From: an uncultured Bdellovibrionales bacterium
Lineage (GTDB): Bacteria > Bdellovibrionota > Bdellovibrionia > Bdellovibrionales > Bdellovibrionaceae
Direction of reading: 5' to 3'
NCBI GenBank assembly: GCA_903926205.1
Contig: CAIYID010000031.1
Coordinates: 1-64,000 of the forward strand
Length of the DNA: 64,000 bases
Below the pieces are notes generated by a model. That model was not told the origin of the DNA. It searched no databases and saw only the letters and a list, made by a program, of their open reading frames with translations. Positions 27,587-62,893 of the stretch are shown in pieces. The position numbers and the translations under genes are program-made. The number at the start of each line of letters is the position of its first letter. The stretch's first letter is position 1.

Positions 27587-28014
27587 GCTTTTGTGTTTTG
27601 CTATAAGCCGGATTCTGTCTACTCAAAAAGAAATCCCGAATTCCTTCTTAAAGAGTTCATCATTCCTCTAGGCCCAACATTGCTATTGGGCTCAAGCGAT
27701 CCTACCCGGAGGTCCCTCATGGGTCATGAGTGCTTTCGATTCTTGCGAATCTTGGCTTGCCTCCCTATTTGATCTTGCTCCACGCAGAGTTTGGCTGTTT
27801 TCACTCCAGCAGCATCGATTTTCATCGACCACTCTTGCGAGTGTCCCCAAGAAGCTCCCGTTCCCGCTTCAAGGATCATGGCCCTGGATATTCTCTCTGT
27901 TCCACTGTTCCGACGGTTTCCCGTGAGGGGCGTTACCCCCTGCGATACCCGATGGAGTCCGGACTTTCCTCCCTGCCAATTTTTCTAAATAAATTTAAAA
28001 AAACCAACAAAGCG
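27587..28014 (-). ncRNA. rnpB: RNase P RNA, bacterial type A
   Basis: The catalytic RNA that matures tRNA 5' ends. On the minus strand the universal 5' core GGAGGAAAGTCCGGACTCC (27954-27972) is followed by the expected internal elements, including GGAACAGTGGAACAGAGAG-type, GCAAGATCAAATAGG-type and GGGTAGGATCGCTTGAGCC-type segments. It ends with the conserved 3' motif AGACAGAATCCGGCTTATA (27602-27620). The ends were placed where the outer P1-type pairing GCTTTG/CAAAAGC closes, so they may be off by several bases. Length of about 430 nt fits type A. Short ORFs overlapping this stretch are spurious. Confidence 0.95.
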
Positions 28015-28035
28015 ATGGACTGCAAAACGGATGGG

Positions 28036-48922: not shown

Positions 48923-48945
48923 TGAGATTCGTCTCAATTCGAGAC
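48923..48945. repeat. overlapping inverted repeats with GTCTC/GAGAC cores
   Basis: TGAGA-TTCG-TCTCA (48923-48936) overlaps GTCTC-AATTC-GAGAC (48931-48945). Both lie about 190 bp upstream of the flp pilin gene. Related inverted motifs recur at 58985, 60587 and 60613, all in non-coding DNA near the pilus/hit locus, so they may be binding sites of one regulator. Confidence 0.4.
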
Positions 48946-49080: not shown

Positions 49081-49108
49081 TAATGAAGTCTGCGCTTTTC
49101 GCCGATAG
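49081..49108 (+). promoter_or_regulatory. sigma-28 (FliA)-like promoter before flp
   Basis: TAATGAAG (49081-49088), 12 bases, then GCCGATAG (49101-49108) closely resembles TAAAGTTT-N11-GCCGATAA. It ends 26 bp before the flp start codon. The spacing is one base longer than the E. coli consensus. Confidence 0.45.
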
Positions 49109-49133: not shown

Positions 49134-49319
49134 ATGAAACAATTTAAAAATGTTTTGAAAAAGCTATGGAGTGATGAGGCCGGACAAGGAACTGCGGAGT
49201 ATGTGCTTTTGCTCGTACTTGTTGTGGCTCTTGTTATCGCTTTCGGAAAACCATTGAAAGAAGCAGTGATGGGTAAAATTTCCAGTCTCACTGGCTCGAT
49301 CAATGAATTCAATCCTTAA
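49134..49319 (+). CDS. flp: Flp/Fap-type major pilin
   Basis: Prepilin of 61 aa. A basic leader (MKQFKNVLKKLWSDEAG) precedes the class IVb processing motif; after the glycine comes QGTAEYVLLLVLVVALVIAFG, with the conserved Glu-Tyr pair five residues into the mature pilin. It is the structural subunit of Tad pili. GGAGG lies 6-8 bases upstream, and a possible sigma-28 promoter is upstream of that. The first gene of the tad cluster. Confidence 0.93.
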   Translation: MKQFKNVLKKLWSDEAGQGTAEYVLLLVLVVALVIAFGKPLKEAVMGKISSLTGSINEFNP

Positions 49320-49335
49320 TTAAAAGGAGTCATTC

Positions 49336-49518
49336 GTGACGGTTGAATATGTGTTGCTCATGGCGGTGTTCGTGCTCCTGTTGATGGGCTCGATCATTAA
49401 GGGTCCTTACGGGGCCTTTACCAACACGGGGCCAAAGCTTGGTGCACGTGTGGAGCGACACTTAATCACGGGTGATGGATTTAAGCCAAGCGGACAATTG
49501 AATGCCTGGAGTGAATAG
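49336..49518 (+). CDS. pilin-like protein lacking a leader
   Basis: Protein of 60 aa starting at GTG with AAGGAG upstream. It begins TVEYVLLMAVFVLLLMGS, i.e. directly with the Glu-Tyr and hydrophobic helix of a Flp-type pilin but without the basic leader and processing site. The C-terminal half is polar. It may be a minor pilin inserted unprocessed, or a truncated duplicate of flp that is still translated. 16 bp after flp. Confidence 0.7.
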   Translation: MTVEYVLLMAVFVLLLMGSIIKGPYGAFTNTGPKLGARVERHLITGDGFKPSGQLNAWSE

Positions 49519-49531
49519 ATGAGGAGAAAAG

Positions 49532-50047
49532 ATGAGTGAATTCTTCTTGAATCCAAAAATAATCTTGGCTGCGCTGTTGATCATCATCAGCGTGGTCACT
49601 GATTTGCGAACCAAAAAGGTTCCAAATCGGTTGATTATTATTGGATTTATCCTCGCGATTGCACTGATTGCAATCGTCGATGGAAAAGGAGGAGTTTGGC
49701 CAGCCCTAGCCTCCCTCGGCGCAGCGGCACTCTTTGCCTTCCCTCTCTATTCTTTAAAGGCGATTGCGGCGGGAGATTTAAAATTAATTATTATTTTATC
49801 TCTTTTATTAAATTGGAATATTTCTATCACGATGATTTTAGCCTCAATGATTTGGGGTTCAATTTTGGGACTTGTGAGAGTTGTTCTTGCTGGAAAATCA
49901 CGTGAATTTTTTCAAAACATCGTTGCTATCGTAAAAAAAGCGACTCCAGCGACTCAAAGTTTAAATTATGTTCCTTATACCATTGCGATCTTGTTTGGAT
50001 TTTTAACTTCTCTTGGACTTTCTAGCGTGGGGATCTCATGGATATGA
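49532..50047 (+). CDS. cpaA: prepilin peptidase, CpaA/TadV type
   Basis: Aspartyl membrane protease of 171 aa with about six helices. The two catalytic aspartates are seen in VVTDLRTKKVPN (about 21-32) and AIAAGDLKLI (about 77-86, the GxGD-type motif here as AGD). It cleaves Flp prepilins. The N-methylation domain of longer PilD enzymes is absent, as usual in TadV. AGGAG precedes the ATG. It overlaps the next gene by 10 bp. Confidence 0.9.
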   Translation: MSEFFLNPKIILAALLIIISVVTDLRTKKVPNRLIIIGFILAIALIAIVDGKGGVWPALASLGAAALFAFPLYSLKAIAAGDLKLIIILSLLLNWNISITMILASMIWGSILGLVRVVLAGKSREFFQNIVAIVKKATPATQSLNYVPYTIAILFGFLTSLGLSSVGISWI

Positions 50048-50283
50048 AAGGACAGGGCTCTTTAGAATTTATTTTGCTCATGGTGCTCAGTGTGGCGCTC
50101 ATTACAGGCGCCGTGAAAGCACTTAAAGACATGGATTTTATCAACACTGTCACGGTGAAACCCTGGGCGGTTGTTTCCGGTATGATTGAATGCGGGGTTT
50201 GGAAGCCTTGTGGAGTTACCGTTAAAGTTTCTGGATATCATCCGAGCAATCGAGTGATTAGCTACAAACCGGTGGGACAATGA
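50038..50283 (+). CDS. TadE-like minor pilin, short
   Basis: Protein of 81 aa with a type IV prepilin motif: MDMKG then QGSLEFILLMVLSVALITG, where the Glu five residues after the glycine is kept. The mature part has two cysteines (ECGVWKPCGV). It overlaps cpaA at its start and the next pseudopilin by 4 bp at its end. Confidence 0.75.
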   Translation: MDMKGQGSLEFILLMVLSVALITGAVKALKDMDFINTVTVKPWAVVSGMIECGVWKPCGVTVKVSGYHPSNRVISYKPVGQ

Positions 50284-50921
50284 AAAAGAAGTTAAATCAA
50301 TCAGGACAAGCTTCTGCGGAATTTCTCTTCTCACTGATTATTGCTTTTGGTTTATTTATTCTTTTTTTCTCTATTTCATTTACCCTTACTGTCGTCGAAG
50401 TTGGACAATACATTGCTTTTTCTACTTCTCGCGCCCAAGTGGGTGGAAATAAAAACCAAGCCGCGCAAAGGGAAGCGGCAACAAATAAATATCAATCGTT
50501 TTCTTCTTTGCCTGCCTTTGGCCTTTTATTTAAATCAGGCTGGTTTGTTTTCGCGAAAAACCCCGATATTCGACAAGGTGGTTCTAATTCCCAAGATAAT
50601 TTCCGAGATAAATTAGGAGATGGTGGATCAGGCGCGACTCCACCATTTGAACAGGTCTATACGGGAGTTTCCATCCCCTTTCAGTCGAAAATTCTTGGAA
50701 TGCAAGTGCCTTTTCTAAACCCGGCCTCAACTGAGGACGCGGGATTTTCGACTAATATTAATGCCATTTTGATACGCGAGCCAACTCAAGAAGAATGCTA
50801 TCGATATTGGGGCGCCGCCCGTGCTCAAGCTCTAAAAAACTTACCTTCTGGCGCGGCACTTCCTGCCGGCGGTGGTTACGATCCAAGTGCCTATGTCATG
50901 ATGGAGGACGCTGGATGTTAA
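50280..50921 (+). CDS. TadE-like pseudopilin
   Basis: Protein of 213 aa. The prepilin motif is KKKLNQSG then QASAEFLFSLIIAFGLFILFF, with conserved Glu. The soluble domain is Gly/Asn-rich with a pair of cysteines near the C-terminus (EECYRYWG and DAGC). Such minor pilins seed or cap Tad pili. It overlaps both neighbours, indicating tight co-translation. Confidence 0.78.
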   Translation: MKKKLNQSGQASAEFLFSLIIAFGLFILFFSISFTLTVVEVGQYIAFSTSRAQVGGNKNQAAQREAATNKYQSFSSLPAFGLLFKSGWFVFAKNPDIRQGGSNSQDNFRDKLGDGGSGATPPFEQVYTGVSIPFQSKILGMQVPFLNPASTEDAGFSTNINAILIREPTQEECYRYWGAARAQALKNLPSGAALPAGGGYDPSAYVMMEDAGC

Positions 50922-51397
50922 ACCTTAAAAACGAAAACGGAAATGCGACTCTTGAAATGATTCCCGTATTAATACTCTTTATTTTATTACTTAATTTTGG
51001 ATTAGGGTTTTTCGGAATTATTCATTCGGGAATTTTAAATTCTATTGCGGCTAGAAATTATACCTTTGAAACTTTTCGAAATCGCAGCAATTTGAATTAT
51101 CTCCGCGATGAAGGTGGTGATAATAATCCTTATTATTCTCAAATGAATTTTCGATTTCATGGAATTACAGAAGAAGGTGCGCCAATCAACACCTGGACCG
51201 CAACCAAGCGCCCACTTAAATTCACAGACCTGCAGACTGGTGTGAACAAAACAGCAACCGCGCAAGATCATAATTCAACGGTAAGATCAAAAATGTCCGA
51301 CGATACAAAGAAAACCTCAGATTATTTTGATGGAGTTTCGCCGGTTTGGATTATGACCCAATATGGAATTTGTTTAAATTCGATTTGTGAGGGGTAG
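50915..51397 (+). CDS. TadE/TadF-like pseudopilin
   Basis: Protein of 160 aa whose ATG lies 7 bp inside the preceding gene, with GGAGG seven bases upstream. The N-terminal NLKNENGNATLEMIPVLILFILLLNFGLG has the glycine and the Glu at +5 (NATLE) of class IVb prepilins. A polar soluble domain and a terminal Cys pair (ICLNSICEG) follow. A longer upstream frame is rejected. Confidence 0.75.
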   Translation: MLNLKNENGNATLEMIPVLILFILLLNFGLGFFGIIHSGILNSIAARNYTFETFRNRSNLNYLRDEGGDNNPYYSQMNFRFHGITEEGAPINTWTATKRPLKFTDLQTGVNKTATAQDHNSTVRSKMSDDTKKTSDYFDGVSPVWIMTQYGICLNSICEG

Positions 51398-51428
51398 TTT
51401 TAATTGGAATTGCTAGGGGGAATGAAAA

Positions 51429-52310
51429 ATGAACAACAATGAATCGAGAAACTTATGGGTTTCTCTAGGAGCAGGCCTTTTTGCTGCTTTTCTTCTCTAT
51501 AGTTATTCACAAGAAAAAAAGGCTGAGTATGACAAACAGTTTGGTTCAACAAAACCTGTGGTTTTAGCCCGAGTCGATATTAATGAAATGCAAAATCTTG
51601 ATGATTCGATGTTAGAAATTGTTCAGCGCCCAACTGATTTCGTTGAGCCTGGTGTGGCCACGGATTTTGACTCCGCCGTTGGTCAGATTGCCGCTGTTCC
51701 GATAAAAAAAGGCGAACAGCTTTTACTTAACAAACTTTTACATCCTGGGCCGGAAACAGGGATCGCTCTGCAAGTGGCTCCTGATAAACGAGCAGTAACC
51801 ATTCCCGTGGATGAAGCCCGCGCGGTTGCAAAACTCATTCGGCCAGGAGATCGAGTGGACGTTTACGCGGCCGTTGATACTGGTCGAGGCACCAGCCAAA
51901 GACGCGAAGTCATTCTTTTCAAGGGGGATGTGGTTGTCCTAGCGACAGGGATTAGTGTTGTAAACACCTTGCCACGTCTCTATGAAGTTGATCCAACCGG
52001 GAAGCAGCTCACTCAAATTAACCTTACTGGCGACACAAAATATCAGACAATCACAATTGAAGTTAAGCCAAAAGAAGCTCAAGATTTGATTTACTTTATG
52101 ACAACTTCACCAGGAAATATCTTTTTTACTCTTAGAAATCCGAACGATAAAATGACAGACGCGCGAACGCCGAGTACGAACGCGGACTCTTTCACTCTTC
52201 GACTGAGTGGTTTAGCGGAAGCCCCTCAAACATATACAACAGGACCTAAGCCACCGATGGTGCAAGTTCCTGCGCCGCCAGCACCAGTTTTACCTGGAAG
52301 AGGAAGGTAG
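51429..52310 (+). CDS. cpaB: Flp pilus assembly protein CpaB/RcpC
   Basis: Periplasmic SAF-domain protein of 293 aa. A membrane anchor lies at about 9-26, then VLARVDINEMQNLDDSMLEIVQRP (SAF strand region), IPVDEARAVAKLIRPGDRVDVYAAVD (typical RcpC core, about 124-149) and a Pro-rich tail. It links secretin to the inner platform or modifies pilins. GGGGGA lies just upstream. Confidence 0.88.
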   Translation: MNNNESRNLWVSLGAGLFAAFLLYSYSQEKKAEYDKQFGSTKPVVLARVDINEMQNLDDSMLEIVQRPTDFVEPGVATDFDSAVGQIAAVPIKKGEQLLLNKLLHPGPETGIALQVAPDKRAVTIPVDEARAVAKLIRPGDRVDVYAAVDTGRGTSQRREVILFKGDVVVLATGISVVNTLPRLYEVDPTGKQLTQINLTGDTKYQTITIEVKPKEAQDLIYFMTTSPGNIFFTLRNPNDKMTDARTPSTNADSFTLRLSGLAEAPQTYTTGPKPPMVQVPAPPAPVLPGRGR

Positions 52311-52316
52311 GAGCAT

Positions 52317-53870
52317 ATGAAGTGTTTTCTATTTTTAAAATGGAGTCCTCCAAGATTGAAAATTCTTACTTTCTTTTTCTTGATATTTAACTTTCATGTG
52401 GCCGCGTTGGCTCAATCATCAAGTCAAGCGACCCTCAGTGAAGAAGAAACTTTAGATATTCCAAAAGCACGTAAATTTATTTATCTTACCCTTGGAATTG
52501 ATTACGATGAAAAAGTTTCCCAAATGCCAGAGGTCATTTCGTTTCGCGGTGATTATCAAAAAGTGACTGCGGCCGTCTTTTCGAAAGGCACACAAATCAT
52601 TCGTTTTAACCCTAAATCCGAAGGAATTGCCACTCTGCTCGTCGTGGATAAAAATAAAAAGAAAATCGCTGAATATCGAATTATTGTTCGTAAATCAAAA
52701 CTTGATGCTGTGGCCAGAGAAATTCAGTCTTTACTCGGGGACGTCGAGGGAATCACCGTTAAAATATTGAACAACAAAGTTCTTGTTGATGGCCAAGTTC
52801 TATTACCAGCCGATATGAGCCGCGTGGTCAACGTCGTTGCTCAATTCGGTGATCAAGCGGCTACTCTTGTGACCATGTCACCAATGGCACTCCGAAAAAT
52901 TTCAGATTTTATCGCTCGCGATATTAACAATCCCGAAGTCGAAGTGCGTGCGCTCAACGATAAAATTATTCTTTCGGGCTGGGTGAACTCTGATGATGAA
53001 AAAGCGAGTGCCGAAAATATCGCGAAATTTTATATGCCACCAATGGTCGCAGATAACGGACCATCAAAAGATGTCATCATTCGTCGGCGCCCCGCTAATG
53101 ATGGAATAGTTAATTTAATTAAAGTAAAACCCGCTCAACCACAACCTCCTCCAAAAATGGTGCAAGTCGTGGTTCACTATGTTGAGCTTGCTAAAGACTA
53201 TTCGAAATCCTTTCGATTTCAATTTATGCCCGACATTGCTGATGGCTCAGGCATTACCCTCCAAGGAGGCGACAGTGCGTCTGGTGCGACCACACAGTTT
53301 GCAGCAACCATCAATAGTTTAATTCCAAAACTCAATTGGTTGAAATCACATGGCCATGCAAGATCCTTAGAAAGCGGAACAATTCTTGTCAAAGAAGGTG
53401 AAAAAGGTACTTTTGATAGCCACAGTAAAATGCCTTCCACGACAGTTCAGGGTGCCGGCGGTCAATTAGCCACCAATGGCGGTGAAAACATCGGTATCAC
53501 CACCATAGTCACTCCTACTCTGACGGGTGAGCGTTCTGACTCTGTCGACTTAGATGTCAATTTTACCATTAGCGCTCCGAATGGAACAACTTCTGCCGGA
53601 TTGATTGTTGCAACGAATGTGATCAATTCAAAACTAGTTGTGCGAAGTACACAAAGTGCGGCAATCGGTGGGCTGATTTCAAATAATACCGTGACGGGCT
53701 ACAATCGCTTGCCACAAGGTGTGAGCCAAAATCCGATCATCAGTTTATATGCATCAAAAGATTTCACAAGAGGTCAAAGTCAGTTTGTGGTGTTTGTCAC
53801 GCCTATCATTCGTAGTTCTGCGAGTGTTGGTGCTGAAAAATTAAAAAAGAAATTTCGCTTAAGAGAATAA
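52317..53870 (+). CDS. cpaC: Tad pilus secretin CpaC/RcpA
   Basis: Outer-membrane secretin of 517 aa with a long signal region (about 1-38). BON and pilus-N-like domains are followed by the secretin core, including VQVVVHYVELAKDYSKSFRFQF, GKMPSTTVQGAGG-type loops, DLDVNFTISAPNG and the final GGLISNNTVTGYNRLPQGV and FVVFVTPII strands. It forms the channel through which the Flp pilus leaves the cell. 6 bp after cpaB. Confidence 0.9.
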   Translation: MKCFLFLKWSPPRLKILTFFFLIFNFHVAALAQSSSQATLSEEETLDIPKARKFIYLTLGIDYDEKVSQMPEVISFRGDYQKVTAAVFSKGTQIIRFNPKSEGIATLLVVDKNKKKIAEYRIIVRKSKLDAVAREIQSLLGDVEGITVKILNNKVLVDGQVLLPADMSRVVNVVAQFGDQAATLVTMSPMALRKISDFIARDINNPEVEVRALNDKIILSGWVNSDDEKASAENIAKFYMPPMVADNGPSKDVIIRRRPANDGIVNLIKVKPAQPQPPPKMVQVVVHYVELAKDYSKSFRFQFMPDIADGSGITLQGGDSASGATTQFAATINSLIPKLNWLKSHGHARSLESGTILVKEGEKGTFDSHSKMPSTTVQGAGGQLATNGGENIGITTIVTPTLTGERSDSVDLDVNFTISAPNGTTSAGLIVATNVINSKLVVRSTQSAAIGGLISNNTVTGYNRLPQGVSQNPIISLYASKDFTRGQSQFVVFVTPIIRSSASVGAEKLKKKFRLRE

Positions 53871-53880
53871 TTTTTTTGAG

Positions 53881-56115
53881 GTGTCTGTGGTTATTAGCCC
53901 TAGTTGTAATTTGATTGCGGTGATTGGTGGAAAAGGTGGCGTTGGAAAAAGCGTCTTTGCCGCTAATTTTGCAGCGACTTTAATGCTGGAGCTGCGCACA
54001 CAAGTTCTTTTGATCGACGCGGATGCGAAATCTTGTGGTGACCAAAATGTTATTCTAGGAATTCGTCCAAACAAAACCGTTTCTGAAGTTGCCAATTTTA
54101 CAGGCTCTTTAAATCCACAAGCCCTCACTCAGCTCATTACAAATCATCCGTCTGGTCTCGGTTTTATTGGTGCCGTTCGTGGGCCCGAAGAAACTCTTAA
54201 GGTCAATCCGGACTCTTTCCTTAAACAACTTGAATTCCTCAGTCGGAGTTACAAATTTATTGTGGTTGATTTGGGAAATGATTTACAACCGCTGCAACAT
54301 GCTCTTCTGCAAGAAGCTACTGCCGCAATTATTATCACGGTTCCCGAAGTTCTGGTGATCAATCAAACTCAGCGCCTCATTCAAGAACTGCTGACGGCGA
54401 CCTACCCGATTGATATGTTTCAGCTCGTCATCAACAAGGTGTCCGGCCAAGGTCTGGCGCCACAAATGATTGCTCAAACACTGAGGATGCAACCTTTGGG
54501 CGCAATTCCGTTGGATGACGTAACAACGGCAGGCTCGTTGCAAAGATCGACGCCTTTTGTTTTATCCAACAGCAAAGCACCCGTAACCGCCGCTTACTAT
54601 GATGTCGCTCGCAAATTAACTGGCGGAGTTTTGCAACGCCTAAAATCCTTGCAAAAGCCCCAAGCCATTGTTTCGCCAAATTCAAGTAGTGGTGACTCTG
54701 GCGGCTCTCAATCCTTTTCCGATGGAATTGATCCAAGAACCGCGTTAAAAATCCGCGTGCATGTTGAGTTGATAAAAACGATGGATTTAAAAAAAGGGAT
54801 CACCGACACTCAAGGAGACAAGGGAAAAGAAGTTGCCCTCCGTCAAAAAACTCAAGCACAAATCACGACGATTGTAGATAAAGAATCGCCGGGGATGGCT
54901 CGTGAAGATCGTTCGAAAGTGATCAAAGAGGTTTTAGATGAAGCCTTGGGACTTGGACCCTTGGAAGATCTTTTGGCTGATAACTCCGTGACTGAGATCA
55001 TGGTTAATGGCTACAAAAAAATCTTTGTGGAAAAAAGTGGTAAGGTACAAATTTCACCCGTCACTTTCACTTCAAATCTACATTTGCGTAATGTGATCGA
55101 GCGAATCGTCACTCCCCTTGGACGACGTATTGATGAAAAAACTCCCTATGTGGATGCTCGATTAAAAGACGGAAGTCGGGTCAATGCCGTGATCGAGCCT
55201 CTTTCCATTGATGGCCCCGCCGTCACCATTCGAAAATTTAAAAAGGGTGGGATCACTCCAGAAAAATATATTGAATTTGGATCAATCACTCGACCGATGG
55301 TCGATTTTTTAAAAATTTGCGTGGAAAACGGTTTAAACATTGTTGTTTCCGGCGGTACGGGCTCTGGTAAAACAAGTTTACTCAATATGATTTCAAATTA
55401 TATTCCCTCTCATGAACGAATTGTTACTGTTGAGGACGCGGCCGAGCTACAAATGATGCAAGAACATGTGGTTCGCTTAGAAACTCGTCCCGCCAACATG
55501 GAAGGCACTGGCGCGGTCACCATTCGTGACTTAGTCCGAAACGCCTTGCGTATGCGTCCAGATCGAATCGTCGTCGGCGAAACTCGCGATGGCGCAGCTT
55601 TGGATATGCTTCAAGCAATGAACACCGGTCATGATGGCTCTATGACCACCACTCATGCAAATAGTCCACGCGAATGCATTGGACGTTTGGAAACACTTTG
55701 CCTAATGTCGGGCATCGAACTTCCGACAAAAGCCATTCGAGAGCAAATTGCCTCAGCCGTGAATTTGATCGTGCAAATTCAACGTCTTTCGGATGGAAGT
55801 CGTAAAATTACGAGCATCACAGAGGTTTGTGGAATGCAGGGAGAGACCGTGACTCTACAAGAAATTTTTCGTTTCAAGGAAACTGGTTTCGACAAAAATC
55901 GAAAAATTCAAGGGCAATTTCAGGCCTGCGGAATGATTCCAACTTTTATTGAGGAGCTTGAACAAAAAGGGGTCATCATACCGCGTGACATGTTCTCGAA
56001 TGATCCCAAAGCCACCGCAACCGGCCTAACTAAAGAAGCGACGAAGATCGCACCTGCGATGCCGGGAAATATGGCTAACCTAATGAAGAAAACTGGTACG
56101 GGCGGCAAAACATGA
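53881..56115 (+). CDS. CpaE-CpaF fusion: MinD-like ATPase joined to Tad assembly ATPase
   Basis: Protein of 744 aa. Residues 1-255 are a MinD/CpaE (TadZ) type ATPase with deviant Walker A GKGGVGKS (17-24) and [11 protein letters not shown], lacking the receiver-like domain of CpaE. A Ser/Gly-rich linker (about 262-284) follows. Residues 290-715 are a CpaF/TadA motor with GGTGSGKTS (491-499), [15 protein letters not shown] (561-567) and the His box [13 protein letters not shown] (582-594). GTG at 53881 is the start; GTG at 53887 is equally possible. Joining both would tether polar localisation and pilus extrusion in one polypeptide. A chimera from a frameshift is excluded because the frame is continuous. 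Confidence 0.9.
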
Positions 56116-57002
56116 TGAATCTTTGGCATAAGTTTATCATCAGCGATTTTTTAATGATCCTGATTGTGACTGGTCTTACGATTTTTGTTGTTCACAAAAA
56201 TTCAAACAGCGTAATAAAACGTCTCACTGATAAAACATTAAAAAATCGAGATGAAATTTTGCGACTTTTAGATCTCATGTTTGTTGAAACCACTGAAAAA
56301 AAAGTGACTCAAATGTTGGTGATGGTAAGTTTTGGTTTAGGACTATTAGTGTTTTTCGCTGTTTGGCCAAACTTTTGGATAGGAATTGTTCTCGCAACGG
56401 TGGTTATTATCGCGGGTTGGGCCTTGCCTTTAGTCGCGGTGAAAAATCTTTATGATAAACGCTGCAACCGACTTGTGGATCAGATGATTGATGGTCTCAC
56501 AATCATGGGAAATGGCATTAAGTCTGGGCTCACTGTTCCACAAACGATGGAACGTGTGGTGGAAAATCTGAACGCGCCAATCTCACAGGAATTTGGTCTA
56601 GTCATTTCTCAGATTCGCCTTGGACGAAGCGTGGAAGAAGCTCTTGTCGAATTTGGCGAAAGAATTCCTCGTGCGGATGTGCAAATGTTTGTAACTGCTA
56701 TTAATATATTAAAAGAAACCGGTGGAAATTTAGCAGAAACTTTTGCCACAATTGTCACCGTTATTCGAGAACGCCAGAAAATTGAAAAGAAAATCGAAGC
56801 CATGACTGCCCAGGGAATGATGCAAGGCCTGATTGTTTCTCTAGTTCCGGTCTTTCTTATTATCATGTTTTTCTTTTTAGACCCTCCTTTCATCACACCA
56901 CTATTTACCACGCCCTTAGGCTTGGTGATTTTAACAGTGATTATCGGGCTCGTAGTTATTGGTGGCATTGTAATGAGAAAAATTGTTAAGATTGAAGTGT
57001 AA
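56112..57002 (+). CDS. tadB: Tad platform protein TadB
   Basis: Inner-membrane protein of 296 aa with a T2SSF domain (DGLTIMGNGIKSGLTVPQTMERVVENL, about 125-151, and FVTAINILKETGGNLAETFATI, about 195-216) and helices near 10-30, 68-110, 235-255 and 265-285. It overlaps the fusion gene by 4 bp. Tad systems normally have two such proteins, TadB and TadC; only this one is present here. Confidence 0.88.
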   Translation: MMNLWHKFIISDFLMILIVTGLTIFVVHKNSNSVIKRLTDKTLKNRDEILRLLDLMFVETTEKKVTQMLVMVSFGLGLLVFFAVWPNFWIGIVLATVVIIAGWALPLVAVKNLYDKRCNRLVDQMIDGLTIMGNGIKSGLTVPQTMERVVENLNAPISQEFGLVISQIRLGRSVEEALVEFGERIPRADVQMFVTAINILKETGGNLAETFATIVTVIRERQKIEKKIEAMTAQGMMQGLIVSLVPVFLIIMFFFLDPPFITPLFTTPLGLVILTVIIGLVVIGGIVMRKIVKIEV

Positions 57003-57021
57003 CAATTTGAGAGGTTTTAGG

Positions 57022-58686
57022 ATGAAACAATTGATAGCACTTATTTTGACGGCTTTATCATGCTCCGTTTTGTTTTCAAATTTCGCACATGCCATCGTCG
57101 ATATGCGAAATGCCAACTACTCCAACACGTGGATTGATCTAGAGCTCACTGGCTCTGGATACGAATTGAAGGTTTCTCGAACCTACAATAGTCGCACGCT
57201 GTTCAATGGAATCTTTGGCTTTGGTTGGTGTTCAGATTACGAAACAAAACTGGATGTAACTCCTGAGGGAAATTTAAAACTGACTGAGTGCGGAGCCGGT
57301 CAGGAAAATTATTATTTTCCTAGGGAATTTAATCGAAAAGAAATCAATAAAACTGTTGGGCAAATTATCACAGCTCTCCGTGCTCAACGAAAAACTGACG
57401 AAAAAACTTTAAAAATTCTTGAGACTGATCTTCCGACAAATCACAATCTTCGCGCCAAATACGCTTTTGATTTGAAAATTTCAGTTTCCGTGAAAGAAGG
57501 CTCACAGTTTTATGCCAATTCCCGTGAAGTGGAAAATGTGGTCTTTGCTAAGGGTTATTACACCAGAAATTTAGTGGATGGCTCTTCTCAGCGATTCACC
57601 AAAGAAGGTCGCATGACTCATCTTTATGATAAAAACGGAAACTACATAAAAATAGATTATGATAAAGATGTGATCAAAGAGGTTTCTGATAATAATGGAC
57701 GACGGCTTAATTTTAAATTTTACACCAATCACAAAGTGAAATCGATCAGTGGTCCAAATAATTTGATGGTTGAATACAAATTTGAGAATATGGATGACCT
57801 CACTTACGTGAAAAACTCTTGGAACAACGTTTATAATTATCAATATGATGATATGCACGATTTAGTGAAGGCCACTTTTCCAGACGGCACCTTTGTAGCA
57901 TTGAGCTATGATAAAAAACACAATTGGGTGACGAGCTTTACTGACCGGGAAAAATGCAAAGAAGAGTATCTCTATGAAAACTCTCCCGATGATCCTAAAA
58001 ATCACTACTCGTCCATTGTGAAGAAAACCTGTGGCAAAGAGGTTGTGACAGATTCGAAATATGAATTCTGGCACAAGGTGCGTGCTGATGGTGAGAAATA
58101 CTTGTGGCGTGTGGGCTCTGTCATCAACGGAAATTCCACAGAAGTCACCTATCATGAAACTTTTGGAAAGCCCGTTTCCATTCGTAAAAATGGCGAACTT
58201 TTTTCTTTCGAATACCTCGCGAACGGTCAAGTGAAACAAAAAGCAACAAAGTATGCAACGCTGACTTACGATTACTCGAAAGAGAACAATAAAGTTTCCT
58301 CTGTGGTGGCCGTGTCTAAGAGTGATAAAGGCAAAGTCATGAAAACTCTAAAAACGGAATTTAAATATGATGGCAAAGGAAACTTAATTTGGGCGTCTAA
58401 CTCTGATGGTCAACGGGTCGAAATGAGTTACGATCCAAAAGGTCGAATTGCAAGCATCAAAGACCAAGCAAAAAAATTCGTGAAAATTGAATACGATGAA
58501 AAATCTGGTAAACCGGCGGTCGTCAGTCGACCAGGCTTAGGCACCATTCACGTCACTTATAAAACTAGTGGTGAAATTGACAAAGTAAACAGCAATGAGG
58601 GCCCATCAGTAGCAATGCAAGTGGCAAGCACCTTTAATAACTTGCTAGAGATTATTTCTCCGGCAACAGCAGAAGTTTATAACTAA
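57022..58686 (+). CDS. secreted YD-repeat protein, Bd0109-like hit locus partner
   Basis: Protein of 554 aa with a signal peptide (1-24, FAHA-IV). It has a DUF6531-like N-terminal domain (GYELKVSRTYNSRTLFNGIFGFGWCSDYETKL, about 45-76), then Rhs/YD-type repeats (RMTHLYDKNGNYIKIDYD, VEYKFENMDDLTYVKNSWNNVYNYQYDDMHDLVKATFPDGT, FKYDGKGNLIWASNSDGQRVEMSYDPKGRI). No toxin domain follows, so it is a structural or surface protein. In Bdellovibrio bacteriovorus bd0109 is of this kind and sits between tad genes and bd0108, the same order as here. GAGAGG precedes the ATG. Confidence 0.82.
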   Translation: MKQLIALILTALSCSVLFSNFAHAIVDMRNANYSNTWIDLELTGSGYELKVSRTYNSRTLFNGIFGFGWCSDYETKLDVTPEGNLKLTECGAGQENYYFPREFNRKEINKTVGQIITALRAQRKTDEKTLKILETDLPTNHNLRAKYAFDLKISVSVKEGSQFYANSREVENVVFAKGYYTRNLVDGSSQRFTKEGRMTHLYDKNGNYIKIDYDKDVIKEVSDNNGRRLNFKFYTNHKVKSISGPNNLMVEYKFENMDDLTYVKNSWNNVYNYQYDDMHDLVKATFPDGTFVALSYDKKHNWVTSFTDREKCKEEYLYENSPDDPKNHYSSIVKKTCGKEVVTDSKYEFWHKVRADGEKYLWRVGSVINGNSTEVTYHETFGKPVSIRKNGELFSFEYLANGQVKQKATKYATLTYDYSKENNKVSSVVAVSKSDKGKVMKTLKTEFKYDGKGNLIWASNSDGQRVEMSYDPKGRIASIKDQAKKFVKIEYDEKSGKPAVVSRPGLGTIHVTYKTSGEIDKVNSNEGPSVAMQVASTFNNLLEIISPATAEVYN

Positions 58687-58700
58687 TGGAGGGGCTCAAT

Positions 58701-58964
58701 ATGAAAAAATTTTTATCTACTCTTTTAATTATTGGAGCCTTTGTTTCTTCAGTGGCGCTGGGTCAATTGGTTCAGCAGACGGAAGATCCGAATAAAACCC
58801 AGCATGATGGCGCTAACGTGACTGCCCTCGGAGCCAAGTCAGAAAATAATAGCGCGTTTTGTGATTGCAGAACGACACAGGTAGATAGGAACGAAAACCC
58901 TAAGTCCGACCTTTCAGGAGGCACGGAAACTCATACAGCACCTTCTAAAGAAGGTGAACGATAA
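58701..58964 (+). CDS. small secreted protein, candidate homologue of the hit gene (bd0108)
   Basis: Protein of 87 aa: signal peptide (1-21, VALG-QL), then a polar, probably disordered mature part with a Cys-x-Cys pair (54, 56) and a charged Ser/Thr/Glu tail. GGAGG lies upstream of the ATG at 58701. The call rests on position (right after the YD-repeat gene at the end of a tad cluster), small size and export, matching bd0108 of the B. bacteriovorus host-interaction locus; I cannot align it. Mutations in bd0108 are linked to prey-independent growth. A CACCTTC-TAAA-GAAGGTG hairpin lies at 58939-58956 inside the 3' end of the coding region. Confidence 0.72.
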   Translation: MKKFLSTLLIIGAFVSSVALGQLVQQTEDPNKTQHDGANVTALGAKSENNSAFCDCRTTQVDRNENPKSDLSGGTETHTAPSKEGER

Positions 58965-59376
58965 GCGTTTAGATGAAAATCTAATCTCAAGTTGAGACGT
59001 CGTCATGACTGACCGCTATTTTTAGCAGCCCTTTTATCACTCTGAATATTTTCTTTGAACTTGCAGTTCCAATCACACGTCTAACTGAGCACTACAAGTT
59101 ACAAAGAATATGAGTTCTTAAACAATATCTTATTTTGAAACAAAATTTCTGAACGCAAGAATCAGTCGAGGTTCTAGTCAGTGTTAACTCCTTGATCGAG
59201 TTCTACTTAATCGTCTGAAAAATCAATAAGTAAACTCCGTTTTTTCTCTCACCATTGACCAAAACATGACTAAGCCATGTTGGTGAGCCCGATCTAAACG
59301 GCAGCAAAGCTTGGCTTAATGGTTGCAATAAACTCCTCCAACGAGTCATAGATTTTTGAAAAGTCCGGGGGGATTT
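58965..59376. other. long non-coding region after the hit-type gene
   Basis: 412 bp without a credible ORF. It contains the perfect inverted repeat TCTCAA-G-TTGAGA (58985-58997), 21 bp after the hit-type stop codon, and a bulged hairpin near 59262-59286 (AACATG/CATGTT with further pairing). No clear terminator T tract. A small RNA or a long 5' leader of the lipoprotein gene is possible. Confidence 0.4.
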
Positions 59377-60417
59377 ATGTTCAAAAAAGAAACACAAGCG
59401 CTCTTAGTTTTAATTTCATTATCTTTGATCGGATGCGCGCCGACTGGAAAGAGTAGTGGGTCCTCGACAAGCGTATCCAGCAGTAGCCAGATACAACAGG
59501 CGATAAACTATGCCTCAGGAAATGCTTTCCTACAGAACTACACCTCTAATGGTGTCACGCCAAGTCCATCTGCACCAGTGTGTTCGGCTTCTCAAGTGCA
59601 AAGAGAAATCACGATGGTACAAGATATGATTTCAGAAATTCAGAAATATGCGCCAGCTGGCTCGTCTTTCGCACAGTGCACTCTTGATCTTCTCAATCAA
59701 CGCGAAACAGACTTGCAAACACTTCTGGCTCAAGTCAATAGTGCCAACGGTAGTTGTGGAGCAATGATGCGAGCAATTGAGGTTGGTCAGTCGCTTCCTT
59801 CTTCTTGCCAAACGTTAACAAACAATCAATCTGGATCAAGTCAGAGTCCAACTTCAGGAGCCCCTAGTTCTGGTGGTTACCATCATGGCAATAGTGGTTC
59901 AGGAAGCTCATCGGGAGGAACTCCTCCAGCTCCTCCAACTCCACCAGCTCCTGGTTCAGGAAGCTCATCAGGTTCAGGAAGCTCATCGGGCTCAGGAAGT
60001 TCATCTGGAGCGGCTCATCACGTGCCGCCATCTCCTCCAGCTCCGGGCTCAGGAAGTTCATCAGGTTCAGGAAGTTCATCAGGCTCAGCTCCGACGCCTC
60101 CTGCTCGAACTCCAACTCCTGCTCCTACTCCTGCTCCTGCTCCTACTCCCGCTCCTGCTCCAACCCCCGCACCAACTCCAGTTCCACCATCAACGACGTC
60201 TGTTACTTATACCCAAGTTAAGGCATTCCTTGGCCCCGCTTGCACAGGCTGCCACTCAAACATGGGCTCTTACAGTGGTGTTATGAACTATGTCTCTGCA
60301 GGAAATCCAAACTCGAGCTCTCTCTACACTAAGGCAGTAGGAGGAATGGGTGGATTATCTAGCACAGAGTTAAGTGATCTTTCTCAATGGATTAGAGAAG
60401 GAGCTCTGAACAACTGA
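59377..60417 (+). CDS. lipoprotein with Ser/Gly and Pro/Ala linkers and a cytochrome c-type haem motif
   Basis: Protein of 346 aa. The lipobox is LSLIGC near residue 20. A helical domain with cysteine pairs covers about 60-150. A low-complexity segment of repeated GSGSSS and PPAPP units (about 165-245) is followed by a PTPAPA tract (about 250-275). The C-terminal domain has CTGCH (289-293), the covalent haem c motif, in a fold ending LSDLSQWIREGALNN like planctomycete-type cytochrome c domains. GGGGGG precedes the chosen ATG; an ATG 7 codons earlier is in frame. The repeats reveal themselves as many spurious ORFs in other frames. Confidence 0.8.
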   Translation: MFKKETQALLVLISLSLIGCAPTGKSSGSSTSVSSSSQIQQAINYASGNAFLQNYTSNGVTPSPSAPVCSASQVQREITMVQDMISEIQKYAPAGSSFAQCTLDLLNQRETDLQTLLAQVNSANGSCGAMMRAIEVGQSLPSSCQTLTNNQSGSSQSPTSGAPSSGGYHHGNSGSGSSSGGTPPAPPTPPAPGSGSSSGSGSSSGSGSSSGAAHHVPPSPPAPGSGSSSGSGSSSGSAPTPPARTPTPAPTPAPAPTPAPAPTPAPTPVPPSTTSVTYTQVKAFLGPACTGCHSNMGSYSGVMNYVSAGNPNSSSLYTKAVGGMGGLSSTELSDLSQWIREGALNN

Positions 60418-60493: not shown

Positions 60494-60812
60494 TCCGCTC
60501 AATTAAGTCCACATAATAGTACTTCCAAAGACTTTTTTTTCCTTCACACTTCTCGAAGACACCGACTATTTCTTAGTTCTGCCGCCGTCTCACAATGAGA
60601 CCTTGGTAAATTTTGAGACACTCTCAAGATACTTTTATGGACTTTTATGGAGTCGATCTAACAGCTGTATAACAATTTTGCGCACCTCTGTTTTTACGAA
60701 ATCCTAACTCATCAAAACCATTGGTATTTGCAATCCGTACCAATTCCAGAAATCAGGCACGCTCTTCGCAATAGTATCAATTATGAAGAACAAGCAAAAC
60801 AAAGGAGTCGCT
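60494..60812 (+). promoter_or_regulatory. upstream region of a small secreted-protein gene with repeated TGAGAC motifs
   Basis: 319 bp without a credible gene. It contains GTCTCA-CAA-TGAGAC (60587-60601) and, 12 bases later, TTGAGA-CAC-TCTCAA (60613-60627), two related inverted repeats in tandem. A TTTTATGGACTTTTATGGA direct repeat (about 60632-60651) follows. This looks like an operator region for the gene at 60813. Confidence 0.45.
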
Positions 60813-61037
60813 ATGAAAAATTTGAGTTTAATGACACTGGCTGTAGGAATGTTGCTATCTAACTTAGCAATGGCGACTGGTTCGGGCGACTGCCCTAAAC
60901 ATGACCAAAGTGGACGCGATGAAAAGCCTAAAGTGCAACTCGCAAAGATAGTCAATCCCAAGCCCAACATTGTTGCTGTGAAACCAGTCAGCCCATCCAA
61001 TGGTGGTGTTGATAGCTTTGAAGAGTACCGTGAATAA
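60813..61037 (+). CDS. tiny secreted protein of unknown function
   Basis: Protein of 74 aa: signal peptide (1-21, LAMA-TG), then a polar mature part with one cysteine (GSGDCPKH) and a Lys/Pro/Val segment, ending DSFEEYRE. AAAGGAG lies upstream of the ATG at 60813; an in-frame ATG ten codons earlier lacks one. Its size, export and upstream TGAGAC motifs recall the hit-type protein 2 kb upstream, but no sequence homology is visible. Confidence 0.65.
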   Translation: MKNLSLMTLAVGMLLSNLAMATGSGDCPKHDQSGRDEKPKVQLAKIVNPKPNIVAVKPVSPSNGGVDSFEEYRE

Positions 61038-61039
61038 CT

Positions 61040-61363
61040 CTATTCATCCTGGGTTTTGCTGTTAGATTTTTGATTTTTAATAGACGAAGGGCTTCGCTGG
61101 AATTCTAAATTCAGACGCGAGGCTCTTTGTGTTTCAGGATTACCAAAAGCTTGAGAGGTCAACTGAGACACCGACTTCGCGGCATTTCGAATCGTCAAGA
61201 CTGCCCCTGATGCCACTTTCTCCAAATAGCCTGCCACTGGAGAGGTCACTAACCAATTCTGAGTGTGTTGCTCAATCGTCAAACTACCTAGATGAACCTG
61301 CATTGCTAAAACAATTGCGATGGCAGCGACAAGTGATTTTAAACAAAATTTTACTTCAGCCAT
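61040..61363 (-). CDS. small membrane-anchored protein of unknown function
   Basis: Protein of 107 aa with one hydrophobic N-terminal segment (about 7-23) that may be an uncleaved anchor, then a polar region rich in Ser, Gln and Lys. Its ATG lies 8 bp inside the end of the response regulator gene, with GGGAG upstream, so the two are translationally coupled and probably work together. No family recognised. Confidence 0.6.
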   Translation of the reverse strand: MAEVKFCLKSLVAAIAIVLAMQVHLGSLTIEQHTQNWLVTSPVAGYLEKVASGAVLTIRNAAKSVSQLTSQAFGNPETQRASRLNLEFQRSPSSIKNQKSNSKTQDE

Positions 61364-61739
61364 GTTTCAAAGCTCTCCCCTTTTGCAAACTACACATTTC
61401 TACGACTCTCAGAAGCTCATCTTTGGTGAATGGCTTTCTTAAAAAATAAAAACAGCCCGCTCTAATGGCCTCTTCTTCGATCCAGTCTGTTGTTAATGAT
61501 GAGGTGGCCACCATCATTATCTGCGGATCTTGTCGCGCGATCTCGGTCACCGCCTCAAGGCCATTGAGTTCAGGAAGTACAATGTCGACAATTAAAAGAT
61601 CAGGGCTTTGCTCCAAAGCAAAAAGTATCGTATCTGGCCCGTTGGCCGCTTCAGCAACAATTTCATGACCCGCTTCCACATATGTGTCTCGAATAATCTG
61701 TCGTATAAAGCCGGCATCATCGGCAATCATAATTCTCAT
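61356..61739 (-). CDS. CheY-like single-domain response regulator
   Basis: Receiver domain of 127 aa. It has the acidic pair Asp7-Asp8 (IADDAG), phospho-acceptor Asp52 (LLIVDIVLPELNG), the switch Ser/Thr in VATSS and the conserved Lys in FLRKPF near 102-107. No output domain follows, as in chemotaxis CheY. The start at 61739 gives the normal receiver beginning MRIMIADDAG, though no ribosome binding site is seen. No kinase is adjacent; the orphan kinase at 20696 is too far to pair on position. Confidence 0.85.
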   Translation of the reverse strand: MRIMIADDAGFIRQIIRDTYVEAGHEIVAEAANGPDTILFALEQSPDLLIVDIVLPELNGLEAVTEIARQDPQIMMVATSSLTTDWIEEEAIRAGCFYFLRKPFTKDELLRVVEMCSLQKGRALKHG

Positions 61740-61771
61740 ATCAAAATTATAATTTGTTTTTTCTGAAATTC

Positions 61772-62893
61772 CTACTGGCCCCAACGATATCCCAGATTAA
61801 AGTAGGTCCAGGTATTTGTGACAGTAACTCCCGCTGGAGTTTGCCCAGTGTAAGGATCAGCCAAATTAGAAGAGCCTGAAAATTGATTTTTTTCAATTTT
61901 AACCCCCAATGACCAAACGAGCTGATTTTCTCTTGAAAGTTTCATTTCACCTCCAAGAAAAAATCCTATGCGCGAAGAAGCATTGGTGGCTCCTGAATGA
62001 AGATTTAAGCCAGTTTGAGATTCACCGTGAATAATCGAAGGAGCCACATCACCGCCAAAGGTCCAGGCGTAGGAGGGTGCGGTTGGAATTCTTACGTTCA
62101 GATACAAACCCAGCCCCTGAGATAATAATCCCGGTCGTGTCAACTCAGACGCCCCGACAGACATTTTATATTGGTTGTAAAATAATCCATAATTTAAACT
62201 GTTAGATCGACGAGACATTCCATAAAATTTTCGCAAATCAATTGAAAGCTCCGACCAATCACTTTTCACGCTGACAGAATTACCACTAGAATTAGTGGTA
62301 GGAAGAGTTTCTGAAAATGTCGCTAAATAGCTACCGGAAATACCGACCAGTGGAGTCATCCAAAGATGTGCCTGTGCTCTCATAAAGGGGGCGAAAGAAT
62401 AATAATTTCGGTAAGCCAGGTTGGCCGTGGAGTTATTATAAATCGTCCCAGTCCCAACCTCCAATTCAACACGATTGTTGCGAATATCGTCGGGATGAAT
62501 TTGTTCTCGATAGAGTTCGCCAGTATGACCGGCGCCACCTTTAAAAATATCTCGAACTTGATCCATAAGTTCCGGAGTGGGTTTAACAGAAACCTCAGGC
62601 TCTTCAATGGCAGCCGGAATATCAACTTTTATTGGAGCTGATTCTGAAGCTGGCTTTTTCCCTTTTGATTTCTTCTTTTCTTTGATTTTAAAAACAGGCT
62701 GATCACTAGCGTTCGGCTCTTTTGCTTGATACCGACCTGACTGAAGTCCAGAAGAAGTCGCGCCTTTTTCCACTGAGCCCGTGCCCGCACCCGAAGAATT
62801 GTTCAAAAGAATTTCGATTGAAGGATCCGCGGAAACAAAGGCGAATGGCGAAAGACAGAGTGAAAAAAATAAAAACAAAAAAAACATTTTCAT
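61772..62893 (-). CDS. putative outer-membrane beta-barrel protein with Lys/Pro-rich neck
   Basis: Protein of 373 aa. It has a signal peptide (about 1-22), a Gly/Ser and then Lys/Pro/Glu-rich low-complexity region (about 30-110, KIKEKKKSKGKKPAS), and a C-terminal series of amphipathic strands (VELEVGTGTIYNNSTANLAYRNYY, WTFGGDVAPSII, TWTYFNLGYRWGQ) consistent with a 10-12 strand barrel. It does not end in Phe. Similar architecture to the protein at 36787. Family unknown. Confidence 0.7.
   Translation of the reverse strand: MKMFFLFLFFSLCLSPFAFVSADPSIEILLNNSSGAGTGSVEKGATSSGLQSGRYQAKEPNASDQPVFKIKEKKKSKGKKPASESAPIKVDIPAAIEEPEVSVKPTPELMDQVRDIFKGGAGHTGELYREQIHPDDIRNNRVELEVGTGTIYNNSTANLAYRNYYSFAPFMRAQAHLWMTPLVGISGSYLATFSETLPTTNSSGNSVSVKSDWSELSIDLRKFYGMSRRSNSLNYGLFYNQYKMSVGASELTRPGLLSQGLGLYLNVRIPTAPSYAWTFGGDVAPSIIHGESQTGLNLHSGATNASSRIGFFLGGEMKLSRENQLVWSLGVKIEKNQFSGSSNLADPYTGQTPAGVTVTNTWTYFNLGYRWGQ

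Follow-up and report, generated by a model that had tools for sequence, protein, structure and literature searches.

A divergent hit locus in an uncultured Bdellovibrionales bacterium, with a predicted secreted-protein gene in place of its reported non-coding RNA

How Bdellovibrio chooses between a predatory mode of growth and one that needs no prey has been an open question since the discovery of the hit (host-interaction) locus, and a locus of this type in an uncultured relative raises the question of which of its parts are constant. We analysed a stretch of 64,000 nucleotides (nt) from an uncultured bacterium of the family Bdellovibrionaceae (assembly GCA_903926205.1, contig CAIYID010000031.1), hereafter the window, in which a cluster of tad pilus genes runs into genes for two secreted proteins. 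In B. bacteriovorus HD100, the protein Bd0108 binds Bd0109, bd0109 could not be deleted, and bd0108 mutants show altered piliation, prey-independent growth and a raised level of a third transcript (PMC3818213, PMC4267844). In our reading, which we regard as highly probable taken as a whole, the window carries a divergent hit locus whose third component is a protein gene under a sigma54-type promoter, and a two-peptide mechanism is proposed for it. The hit locus itself is of a known kind; what is new is that we interpret the third component as a protein, probably related to Bd0108, and assign it a promoter.

The source genome (3.34 Mb in 94 contigs, the window being contig 31) is 99.96% complete. 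A genome of the same family (G036) was taken as HD100 because the published hit-locus primers sit in it at positions fitting the published coordinates (PMC3818213, PMC4267844); the tail of primer Bd0108-R was not found within the stretch examined.

Bd0109 and Bd0108 in the window

The core features of the locus are the following, with lengths in amino acids (aa):

57022-58686, + strand: Bd0109 orthologue, predicted secreted YD/RHS protein, 554 aa, 60.1% identical to HD100 Bd0109
58701-58964, + strand: positional Bd0108 orthologue, predicted secreted, 87 aa, with an EDPN motif, a CDC cysteine pair and the C-terminus KEGER
60755-60770, + strand: predicted sigma54-type promoter AGGCACGCTCTTCGCA, 10/12 consensus matches
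60813-61037, + strand: predicted third secreted protein of the hit locus, 74 aa, homologue of a 66-aa open reading frame (ORF) within the HD100 'small RNA' (sRNA)

A first-pass annotation, made from the sequence without database searches, had described a one-strand tad/flp cluster that ends in genes for a secreted YD-repeat protein of 554 aa and a secreted protein of 87 aa, and had suggested a divergent hit locus. Both genes are indeed present and end the run of genes that occupies 49134-58964 on the + strand. The 554-aa protein aligns with HD100 Bd0109 over its full length at about 60% identity, carries a signal sequence and, as judged by this alignment, is the Bd0109 orthologue and not an unrelated Rhs protein. 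Each of the 60 relatives searched gave a Bd0109 match, the best match having 33-89% identity in 59 of them, with a weak match only in the remaining one (G034). A search of the window organism's genome revealed no second bd0109 copy. Another genome (G003, locus L088) has an additional Bd0109 copy that is divergent, with 33% identity to the protein of the window; it adjoins a gene for an 85-aa secreted CxxC protein (LSPDCRDCAAAV), and no tad genes were detected beside it.

An AlphaFold2 model of the Bd0109 orthologue, built from seven sequences, shows an unbroken series of RHS-type strands between residues ~160 and 525; its N-terminal part is helical, and another helix lies at the C-terminus (predicted local distance difference test score 77; predicted template-modelling score, pTM, 0.51). 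Foldseek retrieved Rhs cores and the BC shells of Tc toxins with strong E-values and poor global superposition (template-modelling score, TM, 0.26-0.41). In the model the fold class is thus clearly RHS-type and the overall shape is not clear; the global arrangement being unreliable, as the pTM and the poor superposition indicate, we do not claim a closed cage. The beta-sheet repeat fold is common to the Rhs core cages of type VI secretion effectors and to Tc toxins (8qjc, 8qja, 4igl). In contrast to these, the Bd0109 orthologue has about half their length, and neither an autoprotease region nor a variable C-terminal toxin was seen in the 554-aa protein, which ends in a helix and tail conserved across the aligned sequences. 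Alignment and predicted structure together show Bd0109 as an RHS-repeat protein without a toxin tip.

The 87-aa protein is a more difficult case. A small secreted ORF lies directly behind bd0109 in 55 loci from the order, and these positional Bd0108s have features in common: cysteine pairs spaced 1-3 residues apart occur in 33 of the 55 (shuffled mean 7.8, maximum 16), and the triplet DPN, which falls in the conserved Bd0109-binding region of HD100 Bd0108 (PMC4267844), occurs in 19 (shuffled 1.4, maximum 6). Outside the genus Bdellovibrio, the last residue is K, R, N or Q in 40 of 50, as compared with 31% for the remaining genes of these loci (P ~1e-12), and 16 of 50 have glycine at position -3 as compared with 11.7%; the P values at the C-terminus are too small because related sequences were treated as independent. 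The window protein carries both EDPN and CDC and ends in KEGER; several Bd0108s of the genus Bdellovibrio end in KEGTR.

A hidden Markov model (HMM) built from 22 Bd0108 proteins of the genus was searched against 5,668 ORFs of other genomes. Ranks 1-14 were all positional Bd0108s, with the window protein at rank 10 (E = 0.0063). Against the NCBIfam model NF053838 (hit_Bd0108) the window protein scored 17.9-19 bits (E = 0.0015), under the curated cut-off of 40; nothing else in the genome matches the model as well, and no better bd0108 was found there. Once the signal peptide was removed, an HMM of the mature part still matched several relatives (E = 5.5e-6 to 4e-3), and the window protein was without significant similarity (E = 46); the first-pass annotation had remarked that homology of the small protein is not visible by eye. 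The attempt to demonstrate Bd0108 homology from the mature part of the window protein was therefore dropped. Because the mature part by itself shows no significant similarity, the 87-aa protein is placed among the Bd0108s by position and architecture, and by these characters it is a divergent, positional Bd0108 orthologue. Divergence is rapid at short range too: in the sister species, Bd0108 is identical to that of the window at only 27 of 78 positions, and Bd0109 is 89% identical over the sequenced part. What stays constant in the fast-changing Bd0108 would be its position, the signal peptide, the DPN motif, the cysteine pair and a C-terminal G-x-[RKNQ].

Gene order and strand are the same as in the HD100 hit locus (bd0108, bd0109; tad genes bd0110-bd0119), as had been proposed, and the synteny extends from flp, past bd0108, as far as the genes for the response regulator and the outer-membrane-type protein. 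Taken together, the Bd0109 orthologue, the synteny and the positional Bd0108 therefore identify the locus as a divergent hit locus, one in which the prepilin peptidase gene is intact. Resemblance to HD100 extends to the position of Bd0108, its signal peptide, DPN motif and cysteine pair; as differences, the mature Bd0108 of the window cannot be significantly aligned, and CDC replaces CxxC. From their published description (PMC4267844), B. exovorus (A11Q_2207/A11Q_2208) and Halobacteriovorax (BMS_0182) can be set beside the window, since they have a Bd0109 homologue and, next to it, small secreted proteins that resemble Bd0108 weakly or not at all.

The third gene and its promoter

A non-coding sRNA of 261 nt, raised in all bd0108 mutants, has been reported in HD100 at 96455-96716, between bd0103 and bd0108 (PMC3818213). 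On the sense strand of this transcript, an ATG at 96683 behind the Shine-Dalgarno sequence AAAAAAGGAGAGTTTT opens a 66-aa ORF that extends to 96483 and starts with a signal peptide; both published reverse transcription PCR primers (PMC3818213) are located within it. Synonymous changes far outnumber nonsynonymous ones, with ratios of 12:1 and 15:3 between HD100 and two close relatives and 15:0 and 14:0 in independent pairs, corresponding to nonsynonymous-to-synonymous rate ratios (dN/dS) of 0.018-0.041 against HD100 and of 0 in the independent pairs. Third codon positions hold 12 of 13 and 15 of 18 of the differences from the two close relatives. The untranslated flanks of the HD100 transcript are no better conserved than its coding part, and we observed no excess of RNA folding over shuffled sequences, either in HD100 (z -0.12) or in the window counterpart (z +0.89). 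An Rfam search of the window and of the loci of seven relatives detected neither a riboswitch nor a known sRNA at the hit locus, RNase P RNA being the sole match in the window.

A third secreted-protein gene recurs downstream of bd0108 across the order. A sense-strand ORF with both a Shine-Dalgarno site and a signal peptide was found in 35 of 54 intervals behind bd0108, whereas the reverse strand gave 1 and each shuffle 0.25 on average, and the two signals are kept over many genera. An HMM of the third ORF detected the same ORF in other genera, with E-values down to 1e-10, or to 8e-8 once the signal peptide was left out. In Pfam and NCBIfam, no family matched the third ORF above cut-off. The HD100 'non-coding sRNA' is, on these comparisons, the gene for a secreted protein of 66 aa. 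Its counterpart at the same place in the window, the 74-aa ORF at 60813-61037, is tied in by position, by promoter and by the sister species (blastp E = 1.9e-6), and would likewise be protein-coding.

This third gene usually lies behind a predicted sigma54-type promoter of its own. Scored against the consensus TGGCAC-N5-TTGC, with GG and GC 10 nt apart, the region upstream of the third ORF has the form TGGCA[CT]-N5-NNGC[AT]. A score of at least 9/12 was reached in 39 of 50 upstream regions of relatives as compared with 2.9% of shuffled regions, no base being preset. In an alignment of the window, HD100 and a third genome, GGCAC and GCAATAG are conserved, and RpoN is encoded in the window organism's genome (PF04552, 221 bits).

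The third protein is probably a paralogue of Bd0108 in the genus Bdellovibrio, because the mature parts of the two resemble each other beyond shuffled controls. Profiles of the mature parts gave an hhalign score of 22.6 (E = 2.2e-4, probability 45%). The maximum over 150 column shuffles was 13.6, the reversed profile gave 5.3, and removal of the last ten columns still left 17.4. Within the genus, glycine is found at -3 in 19 of 22 Bd0108s and in 17 of 23 third proteins. A strict regular-expression motif common to both proteins outside the genus was weak and was dropped. A search of the literature in PubMed Central (PMC) for the protein reading of the sRNA, its kinship with Bd0108 or its promoter found nothing; an automatic 'hypothetical protein' annotation may exist for HD100.

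The tad operon, its neighbours and the palindrome

The remaining features are given below, in order along the window:

48931-48945, no strand: palindrome GTCTCA-N3-TGAGAC with 1 mismatch, ahead of the tad operon; many relatives carry it before flp
49081-49107, + strand: FliA (sigma28)-like promoter TAATG-N16-CCGATA, predicted from sequence and scan
49134-49319, + strand: Flp pilin; Pfam Flp1_like 29.6 bits, slightly under cut-off; HD100 orthologue 52% identical
49336-49518, + strand: trimmed Flp2-like protein, 47% identical to its positional counterpart in HD100; starts MTVEY, compare Flp2 (PMC5430801)
49532-50047, + strand: TadV prepilin peptidase (A24); PF01478, 51.6 bits
50038-50283, + strand: small prepilin-like protein; class III signal peptide, under cut-off; syntenic with HD100
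50280-50921, + strand: TadE/F-type minor pilin candidate; no Pfam match; 39% identical to HD100
50915-51397, + strand: TadE-type minor pilin candidate; no Pfam match; 45% identical to HD100
51429-52310, + strand: CpaB/RcpC; PF16976, PF08666
52317-53870, + strand: CpaC/RcpA secretin; PF00263, PF04972
53881-56115, + strand: CpaE(TadZ)-CpaF(TadA) fusion ATPase, 744 aa; ParA-type domain plus T2SSE in a single ORF
56112-57002, + strand: TadB; PF00482 (T2SSF)
58984-58998, no strand: palindrome with 1 mismatch, from sequence scan
59377-60417, + strand: lipoprotein gene between bd0108 and the third ORF; NCBIfam LIC11213 weak, under cut-off
60587-60601, no strand: perfect palindrome, GTCTCACAATGAGAC; same site in the same HD100 interval
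61040-61363, - strand: conserved small protein of the syntenic block, 34% identical to the HD100 protein
61356-61748, - strand: CheY-like response regulator; PF00072, 73.5 bits; syntenic with HD100
61772-62893, - strand: conserved outer-membrane-type protein, 44% identical to HD100; no Pfam match

All the tad/flp genes named in the first-pass annotation lie where it had placed them, on one strand, but its account of the cluster needed correction in three respects: CpaE and CpaF form one fused ORF, the cluster has just one of the usual pair of T2SSF proteins, and the conserved block does not stop at 58964, since it includes the third gene (60813-61037, +) and the three minus-strand genes at 61040-62893. 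The fusion appears to be general: across the order, 57 of 61 loci have an ORF of >700 aa at the CpaE-CpaF place. Flp pilin, prepilin peptidase, secretin, CpaB, TadA ATPase and TadB were all found in the cluster; no match to a second T2SSF platform protein (TadC) was found in the cluster, to which this search was limited, the rest of the genome not being searched.

TadV has been reported missing from Bdellovibrio genomes (PMC5430801), and it is not in the operon in the loci of the genus that we examined, HD100 included, nor in many genomes of the same family. It is present in the operon of the window, in contrast to HD100, and in most other families of the order. From this distribution the window therefore retains the likely ancestral state, pointing to loss of the TadV gene within the family Bdellovibrionaceae. 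The syntenic block is further distinguished from that of HD100 by the lipoprotein gene that breaks it ahead of the third ORF; the sister species (G001) has no gene there. This lipoprotein has low-complexity stretches rich in Gly/Ser and in Pro/Ala, and its C-terminal end bears a CxxCH motif.

The tad operon of HD100 is FliA-driven (PMC5430801), and the Bdellovibrio FliA consensus is TTAAG-N16-CCGATA (PMC3627812); the site corresponding to that of the window reads TAAAG-N16-CCGATA in HD100. A further signal is the palindrome GTCTCA-N3-TGAGAC, which occurs downstream of bd0109 in 32 of 61 loci, mostly between bd0108 and the third gene. As in the window, the third ORF of HD100 lies behind both a TGGCAC-type promoter and this palindrome. 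Where palindrome and promoter are side by side in the genus Bdellovibrio, the usual distance from the start of the palindrome to TGGCA is 23 nt; in two genomes it is 33 nt. HD100 contains 93 sites at up to 1 mismatch as compared with 10 for the reversed pattern, an over-representation of about nine times, which suggests a large, uncharacterised regulon of one transcription factor. A general link between the palindrome and sigma54 promoters did not hold up: of the 26 perfect sites tested, no more than a few have such a promoter near, and at least two sit in terminator-like stems. A literature search in PMC for the palindrome found nothing.

Outside the locus, the RNase P RNA of the window, of bacterial class A, is located at 27588-28031 on the - strand.

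Alternative readings and a possible two-peptide switch

Matches to RHS cores in Pfam, NCBIfam and the PDB would fit an ordinary Rhs polymorphic toxin with its immunity protein, unrelated to the hit locus. We consider this extremely improbable, since the C-terminus of the 554-aa protein is a conserved helix and tail and not a variable toxin, nearly all relatives have a full-length Bd0109 orthologue with the same tad neighbours, and the downstream protein bears the signal peptide that most immunity proteins lack. A more serious alternative, to which we give a minority chance, is that the organism is no predator and that the locus is a plain Tad pilus for adhesion, with associated surface proteins and no growth switch: the cluster is present in nearly every relative searched and the organism is uncultured, but the FliA-type promoter, Bd0109 and Bd0108 all stand in the Bdellovibrio arrangement. 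Tad-type pili are found in predators elsewhere, as in the Kil Tad-like killing system of Myxococcus (PMC12075869), for which the portion of that article consulted describes no Bd0109/Bd0108 pair.

For the third component, the discoverers' own report of a regulatory non-coding RNA (PMC3818213) and the lack of a Pfam or NCBIfam family would favour an incidental ORF. Strong purifying selection on the protein, substitutions confined largely to third positions, a Shine-Dalgarno site and signal peptide kept over many genera, a folding z-score of -0.12 and the lack of an Rfam match make this very unlikely. A transcript with two functions, messenger for the small protein and base-pairing regulator, is compatible with the coding evidence, and the transcript level does track the bd0108 genotype (PMC3818213); we nevertheless hold it to be unlikely, as neither HD100 nor the window shows unusual structure and the untranslated flanks are no better conserved than the coding part.

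Against our own reading, of a divergent hit locus with a third, protein-coding component, several points have to be counted. The mature part of the 87-aa protein has no significant match to the Bd0108 HMM. The 74-aa protein of the window is recruited to the third-ORF family only when searches are iterated with the signal peptide included (E = 2.5e-4). By a strict rule, the third ORF together with a sigma54 promoter is present in 38 of 61 loci and not in every genome. Support for the paralogy of Bd0108 and the third protein is moderate (hhalign 45%) and comes from the genus Bdellovibrio only. Finally, a role of the locus in a predation switch of the window organism would be read from genes alone.

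With these points in mind, the protein reading of the third component allows a mechanism to be proposed. The FliA-type promoter would drive a near-complete tad operon ending in bd0109 and bd0108. Outside the inner membrane, Bd0109 would bind the disordered peptide Bd0108, as extrapolated from the HD100 work, and this binding may adjust how active the pilus is and whether the cell attacks or grows. Another small secreted protein would be made behind bd0108, on the same strand, from its own putative sigma54-type promoter. This promoter might be active upon loss of Bd0108 signalling, with Bd0108 coming from the attack-phase operon, so that the two would be under opposite control, and the two related peptides could act on the same Bd0109/pilus machinery as alternative partners in opposite states. 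In its strongest form, which we put forward tentatively and think doubtful, Bd0108 and its paralogue would be reciprocally expressed, secreted, disordered ligands competing for the RHS shell of Bd0109; loss of Bd0108 would free Bd0109, induce the alternative ligand and set the prey-independent state across the Bdellovibrionales.

For the biology of these bacteria, the finding would mean that one published element of the hit locus, a non-coding RNA, is replaced by a conserved secreted-protein gene that resembles the switch protein itself and may be expressed from its own conserved promoter.

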